From Candidatus Velthaea versatilis (lineage in GTDB: Bacteria > Vulcanimicrobiota > Vulcanimicrobiia > Vulcanimicrobiales > Vulcanimicrobiaceae), in contig PLAE01000182.1 of NCBI GenBank assembly GCA_003134035.1, forward strand, positions 24,945 through 66,212: a DNA stretch of 41,268 nucleotides. The letters run 5' to 3'. Within the stretch, counting starts at the first letter, position 1, and each line of letters opens with the position of its first letter. The notes beneath the pieces were generated by a model that did not search any database, had not been told where the DNA came from, and saw only the letters and a program-made list of their open reading frames with translations. Positions 14,460-23,925 of the stretch are shown in pieces. The position numbers and the translations under genes are program-made.

Positions 14460-15134
14460 CTAGAATGATACCGTAACGTCAATCGAACGATTTGGCTCGC
14501 CTACCAAATTGAACGGATCAGCCCCCGCCTGGGGACCGAGCTGGAACACGGTCGTTGGTTCACCGTTGTCGGCTGCGGCATACATCTCGAATGCCGGAAA
14601 CGGTTCGACGGTGCCGACAAAACGAACCGTCCGTCCGACGGGATCGATCATTGCGGTGCCAAGCATGTCGATGTCGGGCGACGTGAGACATGGATTGTTC
14701 CCCGCATCGTCAAGATCGATTTGAACCAGATTGGGGTTCGGGTCGGTGCAGAGGCCGCCTTGAGGGTCAACCGTCACGTTTCCGCGCAGATTCGACCACT
14801 CCATTCGTGAAGTACTCGCAGTTGCATCCATTATCGTGGCCCCACTGCCGCAGTCAATGCGATGAGTCGGAAAGCACTGATGAAACTGAAAGTTGATTGA
14901 GGGACCGGATATGGCGATTTCCACCTCCGAATGCATGCGTGACGGTGCATGAATATCCGAAGAAAAGTCGCGATTGTCGGTGCGATAGCAGTCACCTCCG
15001 CCGGGAACGAGAGGCGGTCCTTTGACCATCGTTCCAGTGTCGGGAGCGGACATCGTGATATCCGATACCTCGGCGGGGATGAAAGCATTGATCCAGAGTT
15101 TCACGGTGCTAATAGCTGTGGGACTGTTAACCAC
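14460..15134 (-). CDS. Protein D: uncharacterised leaderless, cysteine-containing protein
   Basis: This is a 224-residue protein of unknown function with a GTG start. The N terminus reads STVKLWINAFIPAEV and the C-terminal third GTVEPFPAFEMYAAADN, a pattern I associate loosely with uncharacterised bacterial families (DUF3238-like), without certainty. There are five cysteines (49, 87, 95, 129, 149) and many Asp/Pro/Gly turns, as in an extracellular beta-sandwich, yet there is no signal peptide or membrane segment. It is the last gene of a four-gene operon (C, A, B, D), 43 bases after B. Its end abuts the triple hairpin array. I cannot assign a biochemical role. Confidence 0.7.
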   Translation of the reverse strand: MVNSPTAISTVKLWINAFIPAEVSDITMSAPDTGTMVKGPPLVPGGGDCYRTDNRDFSSDIHAPSRMHSEVEIAISGPSINFQFHQCFPTHRIDCGSGATIMDATASTSRMEWSNLRGNVTVDPQGGLCTDPNPNLVQIDLDDAGNNPCLTSPDIDMLGTAMIDPVGRTVRFVGTVEPFPAFEMYAAADNGEPTTVFQLGPQAGADPFNLVGEPNRSIDVTVSF

Positions 15135-15152
15135 TTGACCCGAACACCTTAG

Positions 15153-15182
15153 AGATTGCGTTCATTAAAGATTGCGTTCATT
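15153..15182. repeat. 14-base direct repeat across the stop codon of gene B
   Basis: AGATTGCGTTCATT occurs at 15153-15166 and again at 15169-15182, two bases apart. The second copy contains the TGA stop of gene B. It looks like a short slippage duplication just after the gene, leaving a 43-base gap before D. Confidence 0.8.
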
Positions 15183-16596
15183 GCTGCGCGGCGGGAAAGC
15201 CGGGAATCTGGACGTCGCTAAGGATGAAGATGGGGTCGTCGATGAAGTCGGTCGTCAGCGTGAAGTGCACCGGCGATGTTCTGCCGTCGAGCGGAGCGAC
15301 GCTAAACGCGAGCGTCGCGGGAAGCGTGCTGATCGCCGACATGACCGGAATGGTGATTTGCTCGTTGCCCGCTCGGTTGAGATTGGTCAATGTAAAGTTC
15401 GGCACGGTCAGCGCCGGCAGACTCGTAACGACGATCGAAACGTCGATGCTGGCGATCCCGCGGGCCGCGAAGTCGACGCCGCTGGCAACGACCCCGAGCT
15501 GATACGCCACGTCGGCGACGTCGACCACGTCGAAACCCAGATAGCGCGCCGTTGCCGCTTTCGTCAACGGCGACTCGAGCGCGAGCGTTCGCTCGACGAG
15601 AACACTCAGCGGCCCGCTCGTCGCGGCGACGGCGATCGAAGCCGTCTGCTTCGCGGGGATTTCCTGCTGCAAAGCGTTGACCGAGAGTGCGCCGCCGGCG
15701 GCGATCGCGTAGCGGCTGAGCTGGAGATCGAGCGGCGACCGGTTCGTCAAGATGATCGAATTCCCGCTCGGATCGACGGTGAAGCCGATATCGTCGCTGC
15801 CGCTGGTCAGGCTGAAGTTCAGCACCAGGTCGGCGGCGACCGGCTGCTCGTAGAAATCGTCGAGCTTTAACATGGTCTGCCCGCCGAGAAACGGCTCGAC
15901 TTGCGCGGTCAGGGCCTTGATGAAGAGATTGGCATTGGCAACCGCCGAGGTCGTCGCTCCCTCGTCGGTTATCTCCACCGTCAACGTGAACGTTCCCGGC
16001 TTGTCGCCGAGTGCGAATGCGACCGAGCTTTGAAACGGTGTCGCGAGCGTCGCGCCGGCGGCGAATTGCATCGGCAGCGTAACCGTGCAGTCGTGCGATG
16101 CGCTATTCGCGGCAACGTCACTCGAAAGCTCGATGAGATCGATCGAGCTGATCACCGGCCCTAGCAAGAACGAAAACTCGAACTTGCAGCGCCCGCCGCC
16201 GGTCGCCGACGTATCGAGCAGCGCCCGGCACCTGGCGGCGGTACCGTCCATGCCGCGGACGATTCCGTAGCGGGCCGGCACGGCCACGATCGTTCGGCTG
16301 AGGGCGCCGACGTAGAGCGAACGCAACGAGGGATACTTTTGGGCGACGTCGCCAAGAGCGGTGAATTCGCTGAATTGCGACTGGCGCGTATTGAAGTTCG
16401 TCAGATCGGCGATGCCTTCGATCGCTCGCGTCGTCGATCCGTCGGTCAAACAGTATTTTGTCGCGTAGCCCAGGCCCGCATACTTTTTTTCGAGCGGACA
16501 AGTGGTCGACCAGGCAACCGTCCCCTGGTCGAACGTCGGCGCCGGCGTTTCCCGGGCCGGTGATGACGCGGTCGCGGAGATCGAGTGCATCATCAT
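15178..16596 (-). CDS. Protein B: uncharacterised leaderless beta-rich protein
   Basis: This 472-residue protein of unknown function begins at an ATG that overlaps the TGA of gene A by four bases (ATGA), so the two are translationally coupled. Two more ATGs follow at once. Residues 103-115 (IVAVPARYGIVRG) and 133-147 (GGRCKFEFSFLLG) resemble a core also seen in A and C. Residues 205-460 are strand-rich, with repeated alternating hydrophobic segments like Ig-type sandwiches (GTFTLTVEITDEGATTSAVA, ATLAFSVAPLDGRTSPVHFT). There is no signal peptide, no membrane helix and no catalytic motif that I recognise. It is third in the C-A-B-D operon. A structural or assembly role fits the composition but is inference. 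Confidence 0.72.
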   Translation of the reverse strand: MMMHSISATASSPARETPAPTFDQGTVAWSTTCPLEKKYAGLGYATKYCLTDGSTTRAIEGIADLTNFNTRQSQFSEFTALGDVAQKYPSLRSLYVGALSRTIVAVPARYGIVRGMDGTAARCRALLDTSATGGGRCKFEFSFLLGPVISSIDLIELSSDVAANSASHDCTVTLPMQFAAGATLATPFQSSVAFALGDKPGTFTLTVEITDEGATTSAVANANLFIKALTAQVEPFLGGQTMLKLDDFYEQPVAADLVLNFSLTSGSDDIGFTVDPSGNSIILTNRSPLDLQLSRYAIAAGGALSVNALQQEIPAKQTASIAVAATSGPLSVLVERTLALESPLTKAATARYLGFDVVDVADVAYQLGVVASGVDFAARGIASIDVSIVVTSLPALTVPNFTLTNLNRAGNEQITIPVMSAISTLPATLAFSVAPLDGRTSPVHFTLTTDFIDDPIFILSDVQIPGFPAAQQ

Positions 16597-17312
16597 ACCA
16601 GCGCCGGCCGGGGACGTCCGATCGCGCTCGGCGGAAACGAGCTTTCGCGGATTGGTTGGGGGTGAAAGATCGGGAACGGCCGTTGGTAGACGGTCTCCCG
16701 CCAAACGGCGTAGCTGCCGGTCAGCGCAATGACGGCGCCCCCTCTTTGCAAGTTGTCGTATGCGACCACGACGGCTGTGCCGGTCAGCCCGCCGAACGTG
16801 ACGCTCAACGTACCGTCGGCACCCATCGTCAGGGTGCCGGGATAGGTTGCTGAATGTGCGGCTCCGGTTTGGGGATCGGGCGCAGTCGTCGTCAGCGTCG
16901 CGGCGATTGAGTCGATCGGGATCTCGCGAAGCTCGCACGCCGGGTGCTGTTGCCCGTAGGCAACCGCGTCGTCCGGCTTCTGCTTCACCAGGCCGAACGT
17001 TAGCGTCACCTGATCGAAAGGATTCCGGGCGATGTCGACTCCGGATTGGATCGCGTTGAATGCAAACGCCGGATCGACATCAGGCGCCAACACAACGGAC
17101 GGCAGATACCAGGCAAGATTCGTCACGAATCGATCTTGAAAGATATTCCCGGTCCGCGAATTGGCCAAGGGGAGACTTTGGTTCGCGTTTGCCAGCTCGT
17201 CAACCGACGAGGCCGAGAGCGCCGTCGGTGCGATTTGCACCGCCGGCGACGGCGGGCGTGCGATGAAAGGGCGGGTAGAAGGTGTCAAGCTGGGTTCGCT
17301 GGCTTGTTGCAT
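16593..17312 (-). CDS. Protein A: uncharacterised leaderless protein
   Basis: The 239-residue product starts at the ATG at 17312, chosen because AAGGAG lies seven bases upstream; an ATG two codons earlier is only one base from it. The first 60 residues are Ser/Pro/Ala-rich and probably disordered. Residues 67-87 (AWYLPSVVLAPDVDPAFAF) and 100-109 (DQVTLTFGLV) match the core pattern in B and C. Residues about 140-200 are strand and Gly rich (GTLTMGADGTLSVTFGGLTG, VVVAYDNLQRGGAVIALTGS). There is no signal peptide or membrane segment. It starts 20 bases after gene C and overlaps gene B by four bases. Function unknown. Confidence 0.7.
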   Translation of the reverse strand: MQQASEPSLTPSTRPFIARPPSPAVQIAPTALSASSVDELANANQSLPLANSRTGNIFQDRFVTNLAWYLPSVVLAPDVDPAFAFNAIQSGVDIARNPFDQVTLTFGLVKQKPDDAVAYGQQHPACELREIPIDSIAATLTTTAPDPQTGAAHSATYPGTLTMGADGTLSVTFGGLTGTAVVVAYDNLQRGGAVIALTGSYAVWRETVYQRPFPIFHPQPIRESSFPPSAIGRPRPALV

Positions 17313-17332
17313 CGGCATGCTCCTTACGAGCT

Positions 17333-19387
17333 TTAGCTTACCGGTTGGAGCTGATAGTTCTTGATGTACGCATTGATCTGCGCGATCTGGTCGGGCGGCG
17401 CGTCGGGAAGCTGCAGGCTGACCGCATTGAGATATTTCACTCGGCCGCCCGGCAGTTTGACCGTAATGGGCGCAGCGGATTGATAGGTGATCGGATTGTC
17501 GGTGAAATTCGGGCCTTGAACTTGCACCTGCACCGAGTACGTGAACGATGTCTGCGCGACGTACTTGTCCGAAAAGATCTCCCAAAGCACGTTCTTCTGA
17601 TTCGCTTGGGTGATCGTGATCGTGTCGGTGCGCGGACCGATGGTCGTGGTGAGGGTCAGCGTGACGGCCGCCGGCAGCGGACGGCAGAAGAAACGCGTGA
17701 ACAAGTAGCCGACCTCGGCGCCGGTGATGATCGGCGTATGGTCGTTGCCGGTCGTTTCGACGACGACGGTCGTCGCATTGTTCAATAGATCGACTCGCGG
17801 ATCGTTCCCGTCGAAGATCAGCGTCTTGCGCACCTTGACCTGATCGGACGGCCACTGCGGCAACTGCTGGTCGAGTCGGAGATAGGCAATATTGATGATA
17901 TCGCTCGGGTTGTTGGCCGACCACTGCGCGAGACCGGCCTGACCGGCTCCGCTCTGGCCCACCAGGTAGTGGAAGCCCTGGCCCAGTGTTTTGAGATTGG
18001 GCTGCTGCGCACTATCCAGCGGCTGTGTGTAATCCGGATAGCTGACCTCGATCATCGCCGACGTGATCGGATCCGACAGTTTGGTCCCGTCCGGCAGCGT
18101 CTCACTCCAATTGATGGCGTTCGTGGCCGCGACCTGGATTTTTTTGAAATACTCGCCGATGTCGTAAACGACCAAATACTTCTCGGGATGAGCGGCCAGT
18201 GCCGGCTGCAAGTCGGTCAAGTCGCCGTATTTGGCGTCGGTCATCGTGACGACCGTGTCCAGTTTGAGCTCTTGGGTGAAATGCAGCGACTGCTTTTGGT
18301 ACGTCGCCTTCATGGAAACCTGAGCGCCGAAGCCGAAGAGGCTGCCGAACAGACCGCCGCCGCTACCCGACGTCGTCGCGGGGCCGCCGTCGGTCGGTTT
18401 CCAATCAAAAATCTGGTCTTTGACCGCGTTCATCGCGAAGGTCTGCATGTCTTGGCATTTTTGGTCGATGAACGTCTTGAGGTCGGGCGGAATCGCCGCA
18501 CCGTTGATCTTGATATCGGTGACGATCCCGCCGCGCGTCACCGTATTCTGATAGGCGGCGGAAAAGGACGCGCTCTCGAAAAAGCCCGAGGCCGAAGCGG
18601 CCACCGAGAACGAATCGAAGACCTTGTCCATGTCGACGGTGACGGTGATGTCGCAGGCCGGTAAGTAATATTGCTCGGTCAAATTATACTGGACGACAAA
18701 CGGCGGTAAGCCGTTTTTCACCGCTCCGGCCACCGCGCCCGCGGCGAATTGGTTGCAGGTGACCAGGAACGAGTTGATGCCATGCGCCTCGATACTGCCC
18801 TTCTCGGTCGAGACCGCCTTGAGGATCATCGGTGCTTGCGCCGAGCCCGCAGCCGAGGCGTCGAGCAATTGCAGCGTGACGTCGTTGCTGAGGATCGGTA
18901 CGATTCCCAGCTTCGGATCCGGATCGTTCTTCCCGATGTCGAGCAAGCCCGCAAAGCGCGGCGGAGCCGGGCTCCCGGCCCCTTTGGACCCCGAGTAGTT
19001 ATTGGTCTTGAGAGCCTGAATCGCGTTGGCGATCACGCTGTCCGGAATGGCGAACGTTGTCGAGAACACGCAGAAGCCGCCGCCCGCTTCGACATCGCCG
19101 CCCGCGGCGGTCGGCGAGATGCCGACCGTATCTTCCGAGGTCATCAGACCTTTGAAGACGGCCATGCCGAAGTCGAAGTCCTGCGGTGAGTCTTGCTTCT
19201 TGGCAACGTACACGCGCTGCGGAACGAAGTAGAACTGCTGTTGAAGTCCATTCGCTTTGAGCAGTGCATTGTTCGCGTCGGGATACACCTCGAGCGAAAA
19301 CGACGTCTTCGTCTCGTCGTTGACGGTGACCATGAGAAAGTCGGGACCAAACAGCGGTCCAAGCGGGGAAGGGCTGTCGCTCGTCAT
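17333..19387 (-). CDS. Protein C: large uncharacterised leaderless protein, first gene of the C-A-B-D operon
   Basis: The product is 684 residues from the ATG at 19387, which has AGGAG about seven bases upstream; an earlier in-frame start lacks one. Residues 52-62 (FYFVPQRVYVA) and 102-115 (GGGFCVFSTTFAIP) carry the core pattern shared with A and B. A Gly/Ser hinge (SGSGGGLFGSLFGFGAQVS) lies near 335-355, and the C-terminal third is beta-rich, with TSFTYSVQVQVQGPNF and PITVKLPGGRVKYL. There is no signal peptide, membrane helix or enzyme motif. It heads an operon of four genes and is divergent from the small membrane-protein gene at 19695. I do not recognise the family. An oligomeric or surface structural protein is possible but unproven. 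Confidence 0.75.
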   Translation of the reverse strand: MTSDSPSPLGPLFGPDFLMVTVNDETKTSFSLEVYPDANNALLKANGLQQQFYFVPQRVYVAKKQDSPQDFDFGMAVFKGLMTSEDTVGISPTAAGGDVEAGGGFCVFSTTFAIPDSVIANAIQALKTNNYSGSKGAGSPAPPRFAGLLDIGKNDPDPKLGIVPILSNDVTLQLLDASAAGSAQAPMILKAVSTEKGSIEAHGINSFLVTCNQFAAGAVAGAVKNGLPPFVVQYNLTEQYYLPACDITVTVDMDKVFDSFSVAASASGFFESASFSAAYQNTVTRGGIVTDIKINGAAIPPDLKTFIDQKCQDMQTFAMNAVKDQIFDWKPTDGGPATTSGSGGGLFGSLFGFGAQVSMKATYQKQSLHFTQELKLDTVVTMTDAKYGDLTDLQPALAAHPEKYLVVYDIGEYFKKIQVAATNAINWSETLPDGTKLSDPITSAMIEVSYPDYTQPLDSAQQPNLKTLGQGFHYLVGQSGAGQAGLAQWSANNPSDIINIAYLRLDQQLPQWPSDQVKVRKTLIFDGNDPRVDLLNNATTVVVETTGNDHTPIITGAEVGYLFTRFFCRPLPAAVTLTLTTTIGPRTDTITITQANQKNVLWEIFSDKYVAQTSFTYSVQVQVQGPNFTDNPITYQSAAPITVKLPGGRVKYLNAVSLQLPDAPPDQIAQINAYIKNYQLQPVS

Positions 19388-19694
19388 ACAGTGTCTCCTG
19401 ATGGGCGTGTGAGCCAAGTGACTCGAGGAATGGCGGCGTGCGCCAGCAATCGCTCGCGGCCAGGGCGTCCGTGCGACATTTGCGCTTTAGCGCTTGCGCA
19501 AGCGGATCAGTCGTTTTTGGACCGGTCGATCGGCCGGCGGAGCGGCACGGGTGCACCAGAAGTATACGAACTGGCCTCGCCGGGCGAGTATCTGTCGTTC
19601 TGCATCGCGGATAAAGGTCGAAAGTCCCTGGCTGGCCCGGTAGGGGCATTACTGTGCGCTCCCGCGGTAAGGGGCTCGACAAGGAGATCTAAAG
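19388..19694. other. Divergent intergenic region with a perfect palindrome
   Basis: About 300 bases separate the starts of gene C (minus) and the membrane-protein gene (plus). No gene is visible. It holds a perfect 14-base palindrome, CGCTTGCGCAAGCG (19491-19504), a good candidate operator between the two divergent units. AAGGAG (19681-19686) is the ribosome site of the plus-strand gene. I could not find convincing -35/-10 pairs in either direction. Confidence 0.6.
19491..19504. promoter_or_regulatory. Perfect 14-base palindrome, candidate operator
   Basis: CGCTTGC is followed immediately by its reverse complement GCAAGCG. It sits roughly 100 bases ahead of gene C and 190 ahead of the plus-strand membrane-protein gene. 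A dimeric regulator could bind here; no regulator gene is adjacent, so its identity is unknown. Confidence 0.4.
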
Positions 19695-20273
19695 TTGGCC
19701 GAAGAGTCCGTAAAGTGGACCGATGTCATGACCGCCTGGTCCACTCTTGGTCAGGCCGTCTTTGTTGTGGTCGGGATTATCGTTGCGCTATGGCAGCTTC
19801 AGTCGACCAAGAATGCGGACCGGTCTCGAGCTACCGATGAACTCTTCAAAGAACTTCAAAATCCAGAAGTTGATGCGGCGATAGATCGAATTTCCACGTG
19901 CATCGATCCACGAGAAGATTGCGAACGAATTGCCGAACTGCTGCAACGCGACGCAGAGGACCCATTGCGTCTTCAATGCGAGAGCGATATCACGAAGCTC
20001 ACAAATTTATTTGAGAGGATCAACGACCAGTTTGAGAATCAGCTTATAAGCCGCGAGCGCTTTATCAATATCTACGACGAGATCACGCTATTTGTTTGTC
20101 ATGCGCTTTCACAAGCTCATCGCTACTTCGACCAGGCCGACTATGGGCCACTGATAAAAATTGGAAGGCGTTGCCAAGCAAACTATATTGCAGCAGCGGG
20201 TGAAAACAAAAATCTGATCGAAATCAAGATAGCGGCGGTACCGCCGAGACGCTTCGTATCCTCAAAAAAGTGA
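19695..20273 (+). CDS. Single-pass membrane protein, DUF4760-like
   Basis: The 192-residue product has one N-terminal membrane helix (about 16-35, GQAVFVVVGIIVALWQLQ) and a helical cytoplasmic part with TKLTNLFERINDQFENQLIS and a His/Arg/Cys-containing end. That arrangement resembles the DUF4760 family by eye. The TTG start at 19695 has AAGGAG eight bases upstream. The gene is strikingly A+T-rich for this window; the sample 19981-20040 is about 40% G+C, against visibly 65-70% around it, which points to recent acquisition. It lies opposite to and between the two minus-strand groups of the accessory region. Such proteins are often near mobile or defence genes, but no function can be assigned here. 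Confidence 0.72.
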   Translation: MAEESVKWTDVMTAWSTLGQAVFVVVGIIVALWQLQSTKNADRSRATDELFKELQNPEVDAAIDRISTCIDPREDCERIAELLQRDAEDPLRLQCESDITKLTNLFERINDQFENQLISRERFINIYDEITLFVCHALSQAHRYFDQADYGPLIKIGRRCQANYIAAAGENKNLIEIKIAAVPPRRFVSSKK

Positions 20274-20524
20274 CGAAAAGCAATCTTCCTGTAAACGTTT
20301 CGGCGCCCAGATCTGCTAATCGTCAAAGCCTAACGCACGTGTTCGTGCGCCAATTCTTGCGACGTCAGCGTTTCGACATCGATCTCAAAAACGCCAAAGG
20401 CGGCAGGACCAGCCTCACGTTCGGGCTGAGCGGCACCGCGATGGGCGAATCGGAACAGCGCCTCGCCGGCTCGAAACAATTCGTGCAACACGACTACGGG
20501 CGGCCCGCCGCCGAACCGATGTGA
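20270..20524 (+). CDS. Small ORF coupled to the membrane-protein gene (uncertain)
   Basis: An 84-codon frame begins with a GTG that overlaps the preceding TGA (GTGA), the same coupling seen at several real junctions in this window. The product is basic in its first half (FVRQFLRRQRFDIDLKNAKG) and matches nothing I know. There is no Shine-Dalgarno, and composition changes from A+T-rich to G+C-rich partway through. It may be a chance frame or the remnant of a longer gene. Confidence 0.25.
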   Translation: MTKSNLPVNVSAPRSANRQSLTHVFVRQFLRRQRFDIDLKNAKGGRTSLTFGLSGTAMGESEQRLAGSKQFVQHDYGRPAAEPM

Positions 20525-20570
20525 ACGTATCGAACCCCGGGCCGGTATTGCGGAGGTCGGCTATTAACGG

Positions 20571-21950
20571 CTACGCGAGGCTGACGGCGCGCAGAACCGT
20601 AAAGGCGATTTCGTCGTGCGTGACGTCGCCGTGGTTTTGAATGATCGCGTCGCCGTTGAGGTTCCGCACCATTTTTCCCGTCGGAAGCGGTTGGTACGCC
20701 TGCCCCACCGGTCGCAACGTGTCATCCAACGCTTCGGGCGTCGCCCGGGCTCCGTCGGCCCCCATGCCGCCCCACGGATTGATGAAGAGCCCTTGACCGA
20801 TTTGATTGGCGAGCGCCGATGCGATCGGATACGCTAGGCCCACCGCCACATCGTGAACACTGTGCGTCACCTGGATCTCGCCGGTTACTTTTTTGGAGGT
20901 GATCACGGAGCGGAAGACCCCGTCGACGTTGGGCTGATAGTTGGTCGCGAGGCCGAAATGCGAATAGGCCGCTTGCAAAAGCGACATCGTTGCCACCTGA
21001 TGGCCGGGAGAACCGCCGGTCAGCGCGTTTGCCGCCGCCGTGACGAGCCGACCGCCGAAGCTGTGCCCGATGAGATGAACCTTGATGCCAGGTACATCGA
21101 CAAGAGTCTTAGCGATCGTTTGAGCGACGCCGGTTCGGCCGATGAGACCGGCGCGCTCTTTTATCGTCCAGTACGTCGTCACGTTGGCAAGCGCGAGTGC
21201 TGCGTCCTTTACGGCCTGAATCGGATTGAAGCCCAACGCTCCGCCGAGTTGAGCGGCTCCGCCCAAAAATGCGCCTTGGGCGGGAACGGCCCGTGCGTTG
21301 AGCGTGCGGCTGATGGTTGCGAGCGCTATATGACCCTGCATCGTGGTGAGATGCGCAAGCCCGCCGTCGACACCAGGATCGCTTTCTTGTGGCGGCGCTG
21401 GGAATGCGCCCGCTAAGGCGGCGACGAAGTCGTCTTGGGCACTTTGGCTGACGCCCAGGAGCGTTATCTGGTTGATCGCGTGATCGAGAAGCTGATCCGC
21501 CGTCGGATTGTTGGCGATTTGCTTGAGCACGGTCAGTTGCGCCGTGAGTTGCGCGTCGAAGGCATCAGGCTGCATCGCCGCCGCGGTCCCCCGAATTGCC
21601 GGCGCCGTACCGGGTAGAGAAGGTGCGATCGCCGCAAACGCGTTCTCATCGAACATTTTCGACGGCCAGATGACGCCCAGCGTGAAACATGTTGTCGGAT
21701 CGATGGCGGGAAACTGTGCCCACACGCTGTCCATTGCCTTGAAGAAGTTGTCGTAAAGCGTATCAGCTTCCGACTCGTCGTTGTTCCATCCGTGAGATAT
21801 GACGAAAAGGTGCTTCGGTTTTTGCGTTGCGACGTCAGTCAAAAAGGCGGCTTCGTCGGACGGGACCCCGCTCGCATCGTAGTGTACTTTGTCGCCTTGC
21901 ATAGTCTTGCCGTAGGTGATCACGTCGACCTCAAGAGCTTTCAAGGGCAT
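20571..21950 (-). CDS. Alpha/beta hydrolase (serine esterase/lipase-like), leaderless
   Basis: The 459-residue product shows alpha/beta-hydrolase landmarks. LFVISHGWNND (48-58) is the strand and oxyanion turn. GHSFGG (295-300) is the nucleophile elbow with Ser297. The acid is probably Asp367 (HSVHDVAVG) and the base His440 or His445 (NHGDVTHDEIAF). The distance between oxyanion turn and nucleophile is about 240 residues, far more than usual, because of an Ala-rich insertion (about 105-270) that may be a lid or partner-binding region. The ATG at 21950 lies inside the end of the subtilase gene (20-base overlap), so the two are co-translated. There is no signal peptide. Substrate unknown. Confidence 0.82.
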   Translation of the reverse strand: MPLKALEVDVITYGKTMQGDKVHYDASGVPSDEAAFLTDVATQKPKHLFVISHGWNNDESEADTLYDNFFKAMDSVWAQFPAIDPTTCFTLGVIWPSKMFDENAFAAIAPSLPGTAPAIRGTAAAMQPDAFDAQLTAQLTVLKQIANNPTADQLLDHAINQITLLGVSQSAQDDFVAALAGAFPAPPQESDPGVDGGLAHLTTMQGHIALATISRTLNARAVPAQGAFLGGAAQLGGALGFNPIQAVKDAALALANVTTYWTIKERAGLIGRTGVAQTIAKTLVDVPGIKVHLIGHSFGGRLVTAAANALTGGSPGHQVATMSLLQAAYSHFGLATNYQPNVDGVFRSVITSKKVTGEIQVTHSVHDVAVGLAYPIASALANQIGQGLFINPWGGMGADGARATPEALDDTLRPVGQAYQPLPTGKMVRNLNGDAIIQNHGDVTHDEIAFTVLRAVSLA

Positions 21951-23925
21951 GCATGAGGTCGACAAGGCCCGCGCCCTGATAGGCTTTCCTACGTCCCAAA
22001 CTTAATGCGGTTTTTTTGAACAGCTCCTTGACATCGCGCGGCCGGCCGATATACTCGCGCTTAATCGATAAAAAGGCCGCGATGACGCCGGATACGTGAG
22101 GAGCGGCCATGCTCGTCCCGCTATCTTCTTTGTAGCAGTAGTCATCCGCCGCAATAGTTGCCGGCGCGGCGTTATCACTTTGGACCGTCGTGACGGCAGC
22201 CCGGCTCTGCGTCGACGCGCAGGAGATGATTCGCTCGCCCGGCGCCAAGAGGTCAGGCTTCATCCGACCGTCACCCGTCGGGCCTTTCGAGGAGAAGTAC
22301 GACACCCCGAACTGATGGGGTGCCGTGCGGTGCGTCGATCCGACCGTAATCGCCAGCTCCGCGTTTCCGGGATCGGCGATCGACATTTCGATGCCGTGCG
22401 CTATCGCACCCGAACCCTCGGTTTCCGCGTAGCCGTATCCGGCGTTGCCGGCAGCCACGACGACGACGACACCGGCGGCAACCAATTGGTCGACCTCCAC
22501 GCAGAGTGGGCTTTGCCCACACGCGAACCACTCCGCATCGAACGGGTAGCCGAGACTCAGGTTGACGCCGTGCACGATGATGTGACGCCCGTAATTGTTC
22601 CACTGCTGGATCTGATCGATCGCGTCGAGCAGCGAGCTGACATGGCCGGTTCCGTCGTTATCAAGGACGCGCAGACTCAGGAGCTTACACTGCGGTGCCA
22701 TGCCTGAGATTTCTGGAAGCTCGCGCTTCTGCGGCTCTTCGGCCCCGGCTTCGTTGTGGGTCGCGACGATCGCGGCAGGTGCTTGCATCACTGGCGCATT
22801 TCCCGGACTCGTCGGATGCGACGTGTCGGGCCACGCCCTCGACATCGCGCCCGCGATGATGCCGGCCACATGCGTTCCGTGGCCGTAAGCATCTTGGGTC
22901 GCGAAGTTGACGCTTGCTGCTGCCTGAGCTCCCGCACCGGGGCCCGGCGCCACGACTGCCGCGGGTGCCGGCGGAGGTCCAGGAGCGGAGTCCGTGACGG
23001 CGGCGATCGCGCTATTCGCAGGCGTCCCGGCACGCCGGCAGTCTTTGTGTTCCATGGGATGATCAAGTGTGAGATTGTCGTAGTGCCCAAAATGCGGATG
23101 GGACTTGTCGATTCCCGAATCGAGCACCGCCCACACGATGTTCTCACCACTCGCGCCGAACGCCGCGTGCGCGGCGTTGGCCTTCACTGTCGCAATCGTG
23201 TCGGTGATGAAGGCCCGGACGCGCGCGTCCTCCCAGACTCGAAAAATGTAACGCGGCGCCGTGAAAGGATTTCGGTCCAGGTCGATCAGCGCGAGGATTG
23301 CGTATCCGGTCATCCGAGCAAATACGTACGGGTGAGTGGCCGCGCTCTTGGGGTCGAAGTCGACCGCCGATCCCAGCCGATCGCTGATGATCTGTAGCTC
23401 CCGAAAGACACCTGCTCGCGCCTCCCCTGGGGTCGTTCCCTTATCACAGAGATGAATGATTACATCCTCGTGTTCGGTAGGGTTCGACCGAACGCGCGAC
23501 CCCAGCGGTTCCGCCAGCGTTTGGCTGACGAGGTCAGTCGGCGTGAACCGGCGTCCTTGTCCGCCCTTCCCTGGGCTGGGCGAAACCCGCAACACGCCGC
23601 TCTTTCCAGCGTTGGGCGAGATTCGAACGAGCAACTCCGCCGCGACATCCGCGATCTTCTTGATACTTGAGCCGCTTAAATTCGCGAAAAGATACGGTGC
23701 GATCGCGGGATCCTGTCGAAAAAGGCTTGTGCCCGTCCCGCTACTCTTGATTTCTGCATCGACCGCTTGCGCCAGTTGCCGGTAATCGTCAACAAGTGCT
23801 CCATAGGCGTCGGCGACCACGTCGCGAGAAGCCGGTGTCGGCACGGCGATCTCAAAGATGACCTCATAGATCTCGTCGTCCTTCATCTGAGATGCAAACG
23901 GTTGACTAATCAGTTCTTTCGGCAT
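21931..23925 (-). CDS. Subtilisin-like serine protease (S8) with a duplicated N-terminal domain
   Basis: The 664-residue product has the full S8 triad: Asp269 in WAVLDSGID, His349 in YGHGTHVAGI, Ser605 in DSGTSMAAPHVSG, and the oxyanion Asn494 in VAAGNAG. An Ala/Pro-rich, probably flexible insertion (about 308-340) lies between the Asp and His, and a second insert follows at about 362-405. Residues 1-250 hold two similar units: one with APYLFANLSGSSIKKIADVA, the other with HPYVFARMTGYAILALIDLD, each preceded by a helix. They look like tandem prodomain or inhibitor-type domains. There is no signal peptide. GGGAGG lies five bases before the ATG. It overlaps the hydrolase gene by 20 bases. It may process the leaderless proteins C, A, B and D, but that is inference. 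Confidence 0.93.
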   Translation of the reverse strand: MPKELISQPFASQMKDDEIYEVIFEIAVPTPASRDVVADAYGALVDDYRQLAQAVDAEIKSSGTGTSLFRQDPAIAPYLFANLSGSSIKKIADVAAELLVRISPNAGKSGVLRVSPSPGKGGQGRRFTPTDLVSQTLAEPLGSRVRSNPTEHEDVIIHLCDKGTTPGEARAGVFRELQIISDRLGSAVDFDPKSAATHPYVFARMTGYAILALIDLDRNPFTAPRYIFRVWEDARVRAFITDTIATVKANAAHAAFGASGENIVWAVLDSGIDKSHPHFGHYDNLTLDHPMEHKDCRRAGTPANSAIAAVTDSAPGPPPAPAAVVAPGPGAGAQAAASVNFATQDAYGHGTHVAGIIAGAMSRAWPDTSHPTSPGNAPVMQAPAAIVATHNEAGAEEPQKRELPEISGMAPQCKLLSLRVLDNDGTGHVSSLLDAIDQIQQWNNYGRHIIVHGVNLSLGYPFDAEWFACGQSPLCVEVDQLVAAGVVVVVAAGNAGYGYAETEGSGAIAHGIEMSIADPGNAELAITVGSTHRTAPHQFGVSYFSSKGPTGDGRMKPDLLAPGERIISCASTQSRAAVTTVQSDNAAPATIAADDYCYKEDSGTSMAAPHVSGVIAAFLSIKREYIGRPRDVKELFKKTALSLGRRKAYQGAGLVDLMHALESS

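Follow-up and report, generated by a model that had tools for sequence, protein, structure and literature searches.

Two separable gene modules, a subtilase-hydrolase pair and a conserved C-AB pair, at one locus of Candidatus Velthaea versatilis

Introduction

Do six genes that lie close together on one strand of the Candidatus Velthaea versatilis genome form a single system, or did they come together as separate units? In the window, i. e. the whole stretch of 41,268 nucleotides that was analysed (contig PLAE01000182.1, positions 24,945 to 66,212), the region from 14460 to 23925 encodes a subtilase, an alpha/beta hydrolase and four further proteins, C, A, B and D. The initial annotation had joined all six into one undescribed system. 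As presented in this study, the observation behind that proposal is real but mis-joined: the locus consists of two modules plus passengers.

Organization of the locus

The coordinates bear out that six open reading frames are located on the minus strand within 14460-23925. In the order of their reading direction, these encode an S8 subtilase of 664 amino acids (21931..23925; Pfam PF00082, E 2.7e-37), the alpha/beta hydrolase with its GHSFGG motif (20571..21923; 450 amino acids counted from the GTG at 21923), the protein C, which leads the C-AB pair and has no family match (17333..19387; 684 amino acids), A and B, which correspond to the N- and C-terminal halves of a protein AB (16593..17312 and 15178..16596), and the DUF3238-like protein D (14460..15134). 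The reported spacing of the last four genes was confirmed, with +20 bases between C and A if A starts at the ATG at 17312, -4 between A and B, and +43 between B and D. The overlap described for the hydrolase and the subtilase requires that the hydrolase begins at a start further upstream, whereas the start that was picked by alignment to its relatives, GTG 21923, leaves a gap of 7 bases. Judged by hydropathy only, none of the six proteins has a hydrophobic N-terminal stretch of the signal peptide type, in agreement with the earlier view. The cysteine residues that had been thought to distinguish B and D do not do so: five are present in each of B, D and C, and seven in the subtilase.

Between the hydrolase and C, an open reading frame for a small membrane protein is located on the plus strand (19695..20273). 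It is DUF4760-like (E 5.4e-5, below the gathering score), and its GC content of 49% is much lower. Since this gene separates the modules on the opposite strand, the six genes make up two transcription blocks rather than one operon. The GC3 values differ between the blocks, suggesting separate arrivals: they are 0.52 for the opposite-strand gene, 0.60 for D (which has a GC content of 55%), 0.70-0.71 for the subtilase and the hydrolase, 0.73 for A and 0.79-0.81 for C and B, and the flanking genes are mostly at 0.82-0.87. Between B and D, at 15149-15180, there is a near-perfect tandem repeat of 16 bases (TTAGAGATTGCGTTCA / TTAAAGATTGCGTTCA), which suggests a recent join or duplication. No convincing tRNA or boundary repeats that would delimit an island were found at the locus.

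The relationship of D to DUF3238 is an indirect one: a Mycetohabitans protein with a score above the cut-off of PF11579 shares 32.6% identity with D over 95%, and D itself gave no match to Pfam PF11579 at E <= 1. D is absent from ten other genomes that carry the C-AB family, has one weak match elsewhere in the phylum, and is not similar to the small gene that precedes C in the same-family genome G051. D is probably a passenger, and the gene on the opposite strand looks like one as well.

The subtilase-hydrolase module

The tandem N-terminal units noticed earlier in the subtilase are indeed present: two units that are weakly similar to each other (pairwise E 1e-4) precede the catalytic domain. 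The catalytic D/H/S motifs, with D269, H349/H352 and S605, are invariant in six relatives. For the hydrolase, the family assignment is based on the nucleophile motif GHSFGG, which includes S288, with only weak matches to the Abhydrolase profiles; the catalytic residues S288, D358 and H431 are invariant in seven sequences. About 240 residues lie between the oxyanion region (H44-W46) and S288, and their middle part is poorly conserved. It is possible that this long variable insertion ahead of the nucleophile acts as a gate.

The subtilase and the hydrolase form an independent two-gene module. The relatives of the hydrolase in the genomes G118 and G123 are 65-68% identical and that in G016 is 48% identical, and in each of the three genomes the subtilase gene is found directly before the hydrolase gene, with C and AB absent nearby. 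The pair is also carried by plasmids of Rhodococcus and Rhizobium, and among the loci seen it is only in the window that it lies beside C-AB. Other relatives of the hydrolase have different peptidase-clan neighbours: in Planktothrix, the next gene encodes a CHAT-nSTAND1 fusion, in Nostoc the gene precedes C25 and CHAT genes, which belong to the caspase clan, and in Bradyrhizobium a CHAT gene is located two genes beyond it. The hydrolase is thus constant and the protease varies, as one would expect if different proteases serve one effector.

The C-AB pair

The idea that C, A, B and D cannot be placed in known families holds for C, A and B, which together with their relatives have no family in any of four libraries (Pfam, NCBIfam, PADLOC and PHROGs), but not for the DUF3238-like D. 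Profile searches of the PDB with the alignments of C and of its superfamily gave no match either. The search for relatives of C identified four other loci in which C is 45-61% identical: L009 in the same-family genome G051, L006 in Kitasatospora mediocidica, L007 in a Bacteroidetes MAG and L008 in a Silvibacterium MAG. Two additional genomes of Bacteroidota (L071, L072) and one of the Kitasatospora family (L075) encode more distant C-AB pairs. In all eight loci, the window included, AB follows C, adjacent and on one strand; the loci come from several phyla. Close relatives of C were found neither in phages nor in viral contigs, and plasmids gave one distant match. C-AB is an undescribed conserved pair.

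A and B had been regarded as two orphan proteins. The alignment revealed that they are halves of one protein, which is encoded by a single gene directly 3' of C and on the same strand in all relatives examined. The single-gene AB proteins of L006-L009 have about 700-755 amino acids, and A aligns to their N-terminal and B to their C-terminal half; B is 50% identical to the Silvibacterium protein. A consists of a mixed alpha/beta domain with a WYLP motif and ends in a proline-rich linker that is variable in length between the relatives. The A/B junction is located inside this linker, at the 4-base overlap of the two genes in the window, and may reflect a genuine split of the gene, a frameshift that the ribosome reads through, or a mistake in the assembly.

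Structure prediction was of limited help. Calculated from 4 sequences, the AlphaFold model of C has a mean pLDDT of 40 and is poor outside the C-terminal region, where residues of about 520-660 form an Ig/FN3-like domain with a pLDDT of about 70-89. For AB, the model that was calculated with the L008 protein as the query (5 sequences, mean pLDDT 49) is fair only for a mixed alpha/beta domain at residues 49-199 (pLDDT about 70-84). Foldseek searches with these weak C and AB models gave no match at E <= 0.001, and the best match, the beta-sandwich of a Kir channel at E 0.0075, was judged not meaningful. Since the models are too weak, no fold was assigned.

These results bear on the original proposal that the six genes encode one system making a protease-processed particle, a toxin-like complex or a compartment. 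Common strand, close spacing and the presence of a protease and a hydrolase beside leaderless beta-rich proteins speak for such an assembly, but we consider it very improbable: the subtilase-hydrolase pair occurs elsewhere without C-AB, C-AB occurs without that pair, and D does not accompany C-AB in other genomes. A lack of conserved co-occurrence had been named at the outset as an argument against the proposal, and this is what is seen for the set of six, but not for each of the two modules. Moreover, no capsid, tail or encapsulin match was obtained for A-D in PHROGs, or with the weak C and AB models in the viral fold library and the PDB, and nothing in our analysis shows a particle, toxin-like complex or compartment.

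The superfamily of C

An alignment of C with its distant matches revealed an N-terminal motif, approximately 'FPDhaDPxqFYYLP', and a common pattern following it in 13 proteins from several sources; in the window, the motif of C reads 'YPDANN...QFYFVP'. C belongs to a broad, sporadic and undescribed superfamily. Its members were found in 2 of 148 genomes of the window's phylum and, counting the seeding relative of each search, in 6/396, 2/396, 5/296 and 4/249 genomes of the other sampled groups. In G051, G1049 (L070), Paracoccus (L043) and Pararhizobium (L042), three to six paralogues lie in tandem. The domain of A may be akin to the N-terminus of C: the two have the same motif and a similar order of strands and helices, but the support from hhalign is weak, with E values of 0.004 and 0.026 at low probability.

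The loci differ in their make-up. The Pararhizobium plasmid NZ_CP119567.1 (L042:13722-30786) carries eight tandem hypothetical genes on one strand, superfamily members among them, adjoining genes for a Crp/Fnr regulator, a cytochrome P450 and a cyclase. The region of G051 that corresponds to L009/L010 (G051:C7:918-948 kb) encodes C, AB, at least three superfamily paralogues, a PLD and a patatin as well as an AAA ATPase and an IPT/TIG-like small protein. L027 and L028, which are of the Acidobacteriota group, have four to six superfamily genes in an array, and TPR insertions and low-complexity linkers occur in some of them.

Proteases and lipases at the C-AB and superfamily loci

The loci were obtained through C or its superfamily alone, and their neighbours are therefore unbiased with respect to proteases. 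Counting the window, where the subtilase is the peptidase neighbour, a peptidase is encoded beside or within the cluster in 7 of 18 superfamily loci; in the stretch read, the other 11 have no protease (e. g. L007, L008, L009/L010, L072 and L075), several of them having been read only for long open reading frames or from annotation. In Kitasatospora mediocidica (L006), a caspase gene directly follows C-AB and overlaps the end of AB, and a genome-wide search identified its product as the one and only Peptidase_C14 domain of the 8.7 Mb genome. The two caspases in the G1049 locus (L070) account for two of the three Peptidase_C14 domains of that genome. A caspase with peptidoglycan-binding domains is the neighbour on a Deinococcus plasmid (L017), and a papain-type protease in L071. 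In Paracoccus (L043), trypsins, one of them with an EAD1 domain, are encoded beside an EAD1 protein and a STAND-type ATPase. Finally, in a member of the Streptomycetaceae (L076), a subtilase gene is located directly after the superfamily gene, and the long C-terminal part of the protease is homologous to the product of that gene (E 5e-13). Lipases are found as well, i. e. patatin in L006 and L010 and PLD in L009 and L043, and a muramidase is encoded beside C-AB in L071 and L072. The link between the superfamily and proteases or lipases is real: caspases, papain, trypsins, subtilase, patatin and PLD occur near relatives of C, and the protease can be exchanged from locus to locus.

In the gene pair of L076 (8054-15534), the subtilase polypeptide has well over 1500 amino acids. 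On the Paracoccus plasmid NZ_CP102356.1 (L043:1013-26865), a long run of genes on the same strand encodes a trypsin, a tyrosinase with a twin-arginine-like leader, a PLD, five to six superfamily proteins, the STAND-type ATPase, the EAD1 protein and the EAD1-trypsin. This run has the appearance of the system in a complete and elaborate form.

It could be argued that these are ordinary accessory families, that the proximity of proteases is incidental and that the window is simply an island of accumulated, unrelated genes. The segments differ in GC and GC3, D and the opposite-strand gene resemble passengers, and many C-AB loci have no protease. This explanation is unlikely in our view: the sole caspase of an 8.7 Mb genome is encoded directly after AB, the linkage recurs with four peptidase families including a subtilase polypeptide with a superfamily-type region, and the hydrolase keeps peptidase-clan neighbours across phyla.

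The main rival is an exported structure that is matured by proteases. The superfamily would then build an extracellular or envelope structure, such as a coat, an adhesive or a lytic machine, with muramidases, lipases and the tyrosinase as its working enzymes, and C-AB would leave the cell without a signal peptide. The superfamily members in L027, L028 and L073 (Acidobacteriota and Bacteroidota) have signal-peptide-like N-termini, and the branch represented by L027 and L028 is apparently exported. The muramidase beside C-AB, the Deinococcus caspase with its peptidoglycan-binding domains, the tyrosinase of the Paracoccus operon and the Ig/FN3-like C-terminus of C point in the same direction, and muramidase, amidase and peptidoglycan-binding partners suggest the cell wall as the site of action. 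Against this stand the lack of an export signal in C, A and B, the presence of caspases, STAND NTPases and EAD1, which are cytoplasmic control modules, and the lack of secretion genes in the loci read. We regard an envelope structure as doubtful, if a serious contender.

Discussion

Our work supports, at a little under an even chance, the idea that the locus represents an island with two adjacent modules, each mobile on its own and both of a type that couples proteases to conflict or cell death. The first module, the subtilase and the lipase-like hydrolase, is most likely a protease-activated effector pair: upon triggering, the subtilase would cut the hydrolase or a regulator, and the hydrolase would then attack membrane lipids. 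In the second module, C-AB is most likely a leaderless beta-rich complex, a sensor or scaffold, that would be read by the adjoining protease and lipase or would control them; elsewhere, the partner sets are caspase and patatin, papain-like protease and muramidase, or trypsins, PLD and a STAND NTPase. The likely outcome would be growth arrest or death of the infected or stressed cell, and the two modules may cooperate in the window genome. The most economical reading is that both belong to a protease-gated theme with lipase-type enzymes as executioners. Several observations count against this explanation: no protease is seen in the stretch read of 11 of the 18 superfamily loci, PADLOC recognizes none of the C-AB proteins, some superfamily members look exported and have partners that point to the cell wall, and the subtilase-hydrolase pair was seen beside C-AB in the window only.

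In bacterial gasdermin operons, a protease is encoded beside a membrane-attacking protein. The locus shares with them a protease that adjoins a putative membrane-attacking protein, but there is no gasdermin-like protein here, and C and AB, of about 700 amino acids, are unrelated by sequence search. Proteases that open a proenzyme effector are established in the trypsin-nuclease pairs of Hachiman and AVAST and in the caspase-nuclease canu loci, and protease-nuclease loci of the canu type also encode Ig-like and unknown partners (PMC12799240). As in these systems, the protease gene adjoins the gene for the effector enzyme and is kept with it as a pair (G123, G118, G016, Rhodococcus, Rhizobium), and there are Ig-like partners and a spread by repeated acquisition. 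In contrast, the window combines a subtilase with a lipase-like hydrolase rather than trypsin- or caspase-type proteases with MBL nucleases, and C and AB have no match among the components of those systems.

Assemblies of trypsin, EAD1 and STAND proteins have been predicted to be conflict systems ('System 3'; Kaur et al. 2020, PMC7159879). The Paracoccus superfamily locus resembles these by its STAND-type ATPase, EAD1 protein and EAD1-trypsin, as does Planktothrix with the CHAT-nSTAND1 fusion beside the hydrolase relative. Unlike System 3, the cluster in the window contains no EAD, STAND or NucA and has no core of NucA endonuclease and trypsin; patatin, tyrosinase or similar partners did not turn up in text searches of that paper (PMC7159879). 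The anti-phage system IetAS consists of an ATPase and a subtilase, and the subtilase of the window matches the IetS models weakly. This candidate was rejected: the IetS score is 29.6 bits at a cut-off of 900 bits, and the neighbour is a hydrolase, with no IetA ATPase alongside. We found no description of the gene combinations reported here in the open-licence literature.

It is tempting to go one step further: C-AB could be the invariable core of a modular bacterial immune or cell-death system that is widespread and has not been described. The protease would be exchangeable between caspase, papain, trypsin and subtilase, and the enzyme that attacks the membrane or wall between patatin, PLD, alpha/beta hydrolase and muramidase; the N-terminal domain would be a new fold, common to a large unnamed superfamily. 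We put this forward as a possible but rather unlikely extension.

What makes the locus interesting is the undescribed C-AB pair, together with its link to proteases, bacterial caspases among them. To our knowledge, the natural partners and substrates of bacterial caspases are largely unknown. Because the only caspase of Kitasatospora mediocidica is linked to C-AB, its substrate and function are directly testable in a cultured organism. If our interpretation is true, a lipase branch would be added to the protease-gated theme of bacterial defence, and an unassigned superfamily of proteins of approximately 700 residues, repeatedly tied to bacterial caspases, would receive a name.
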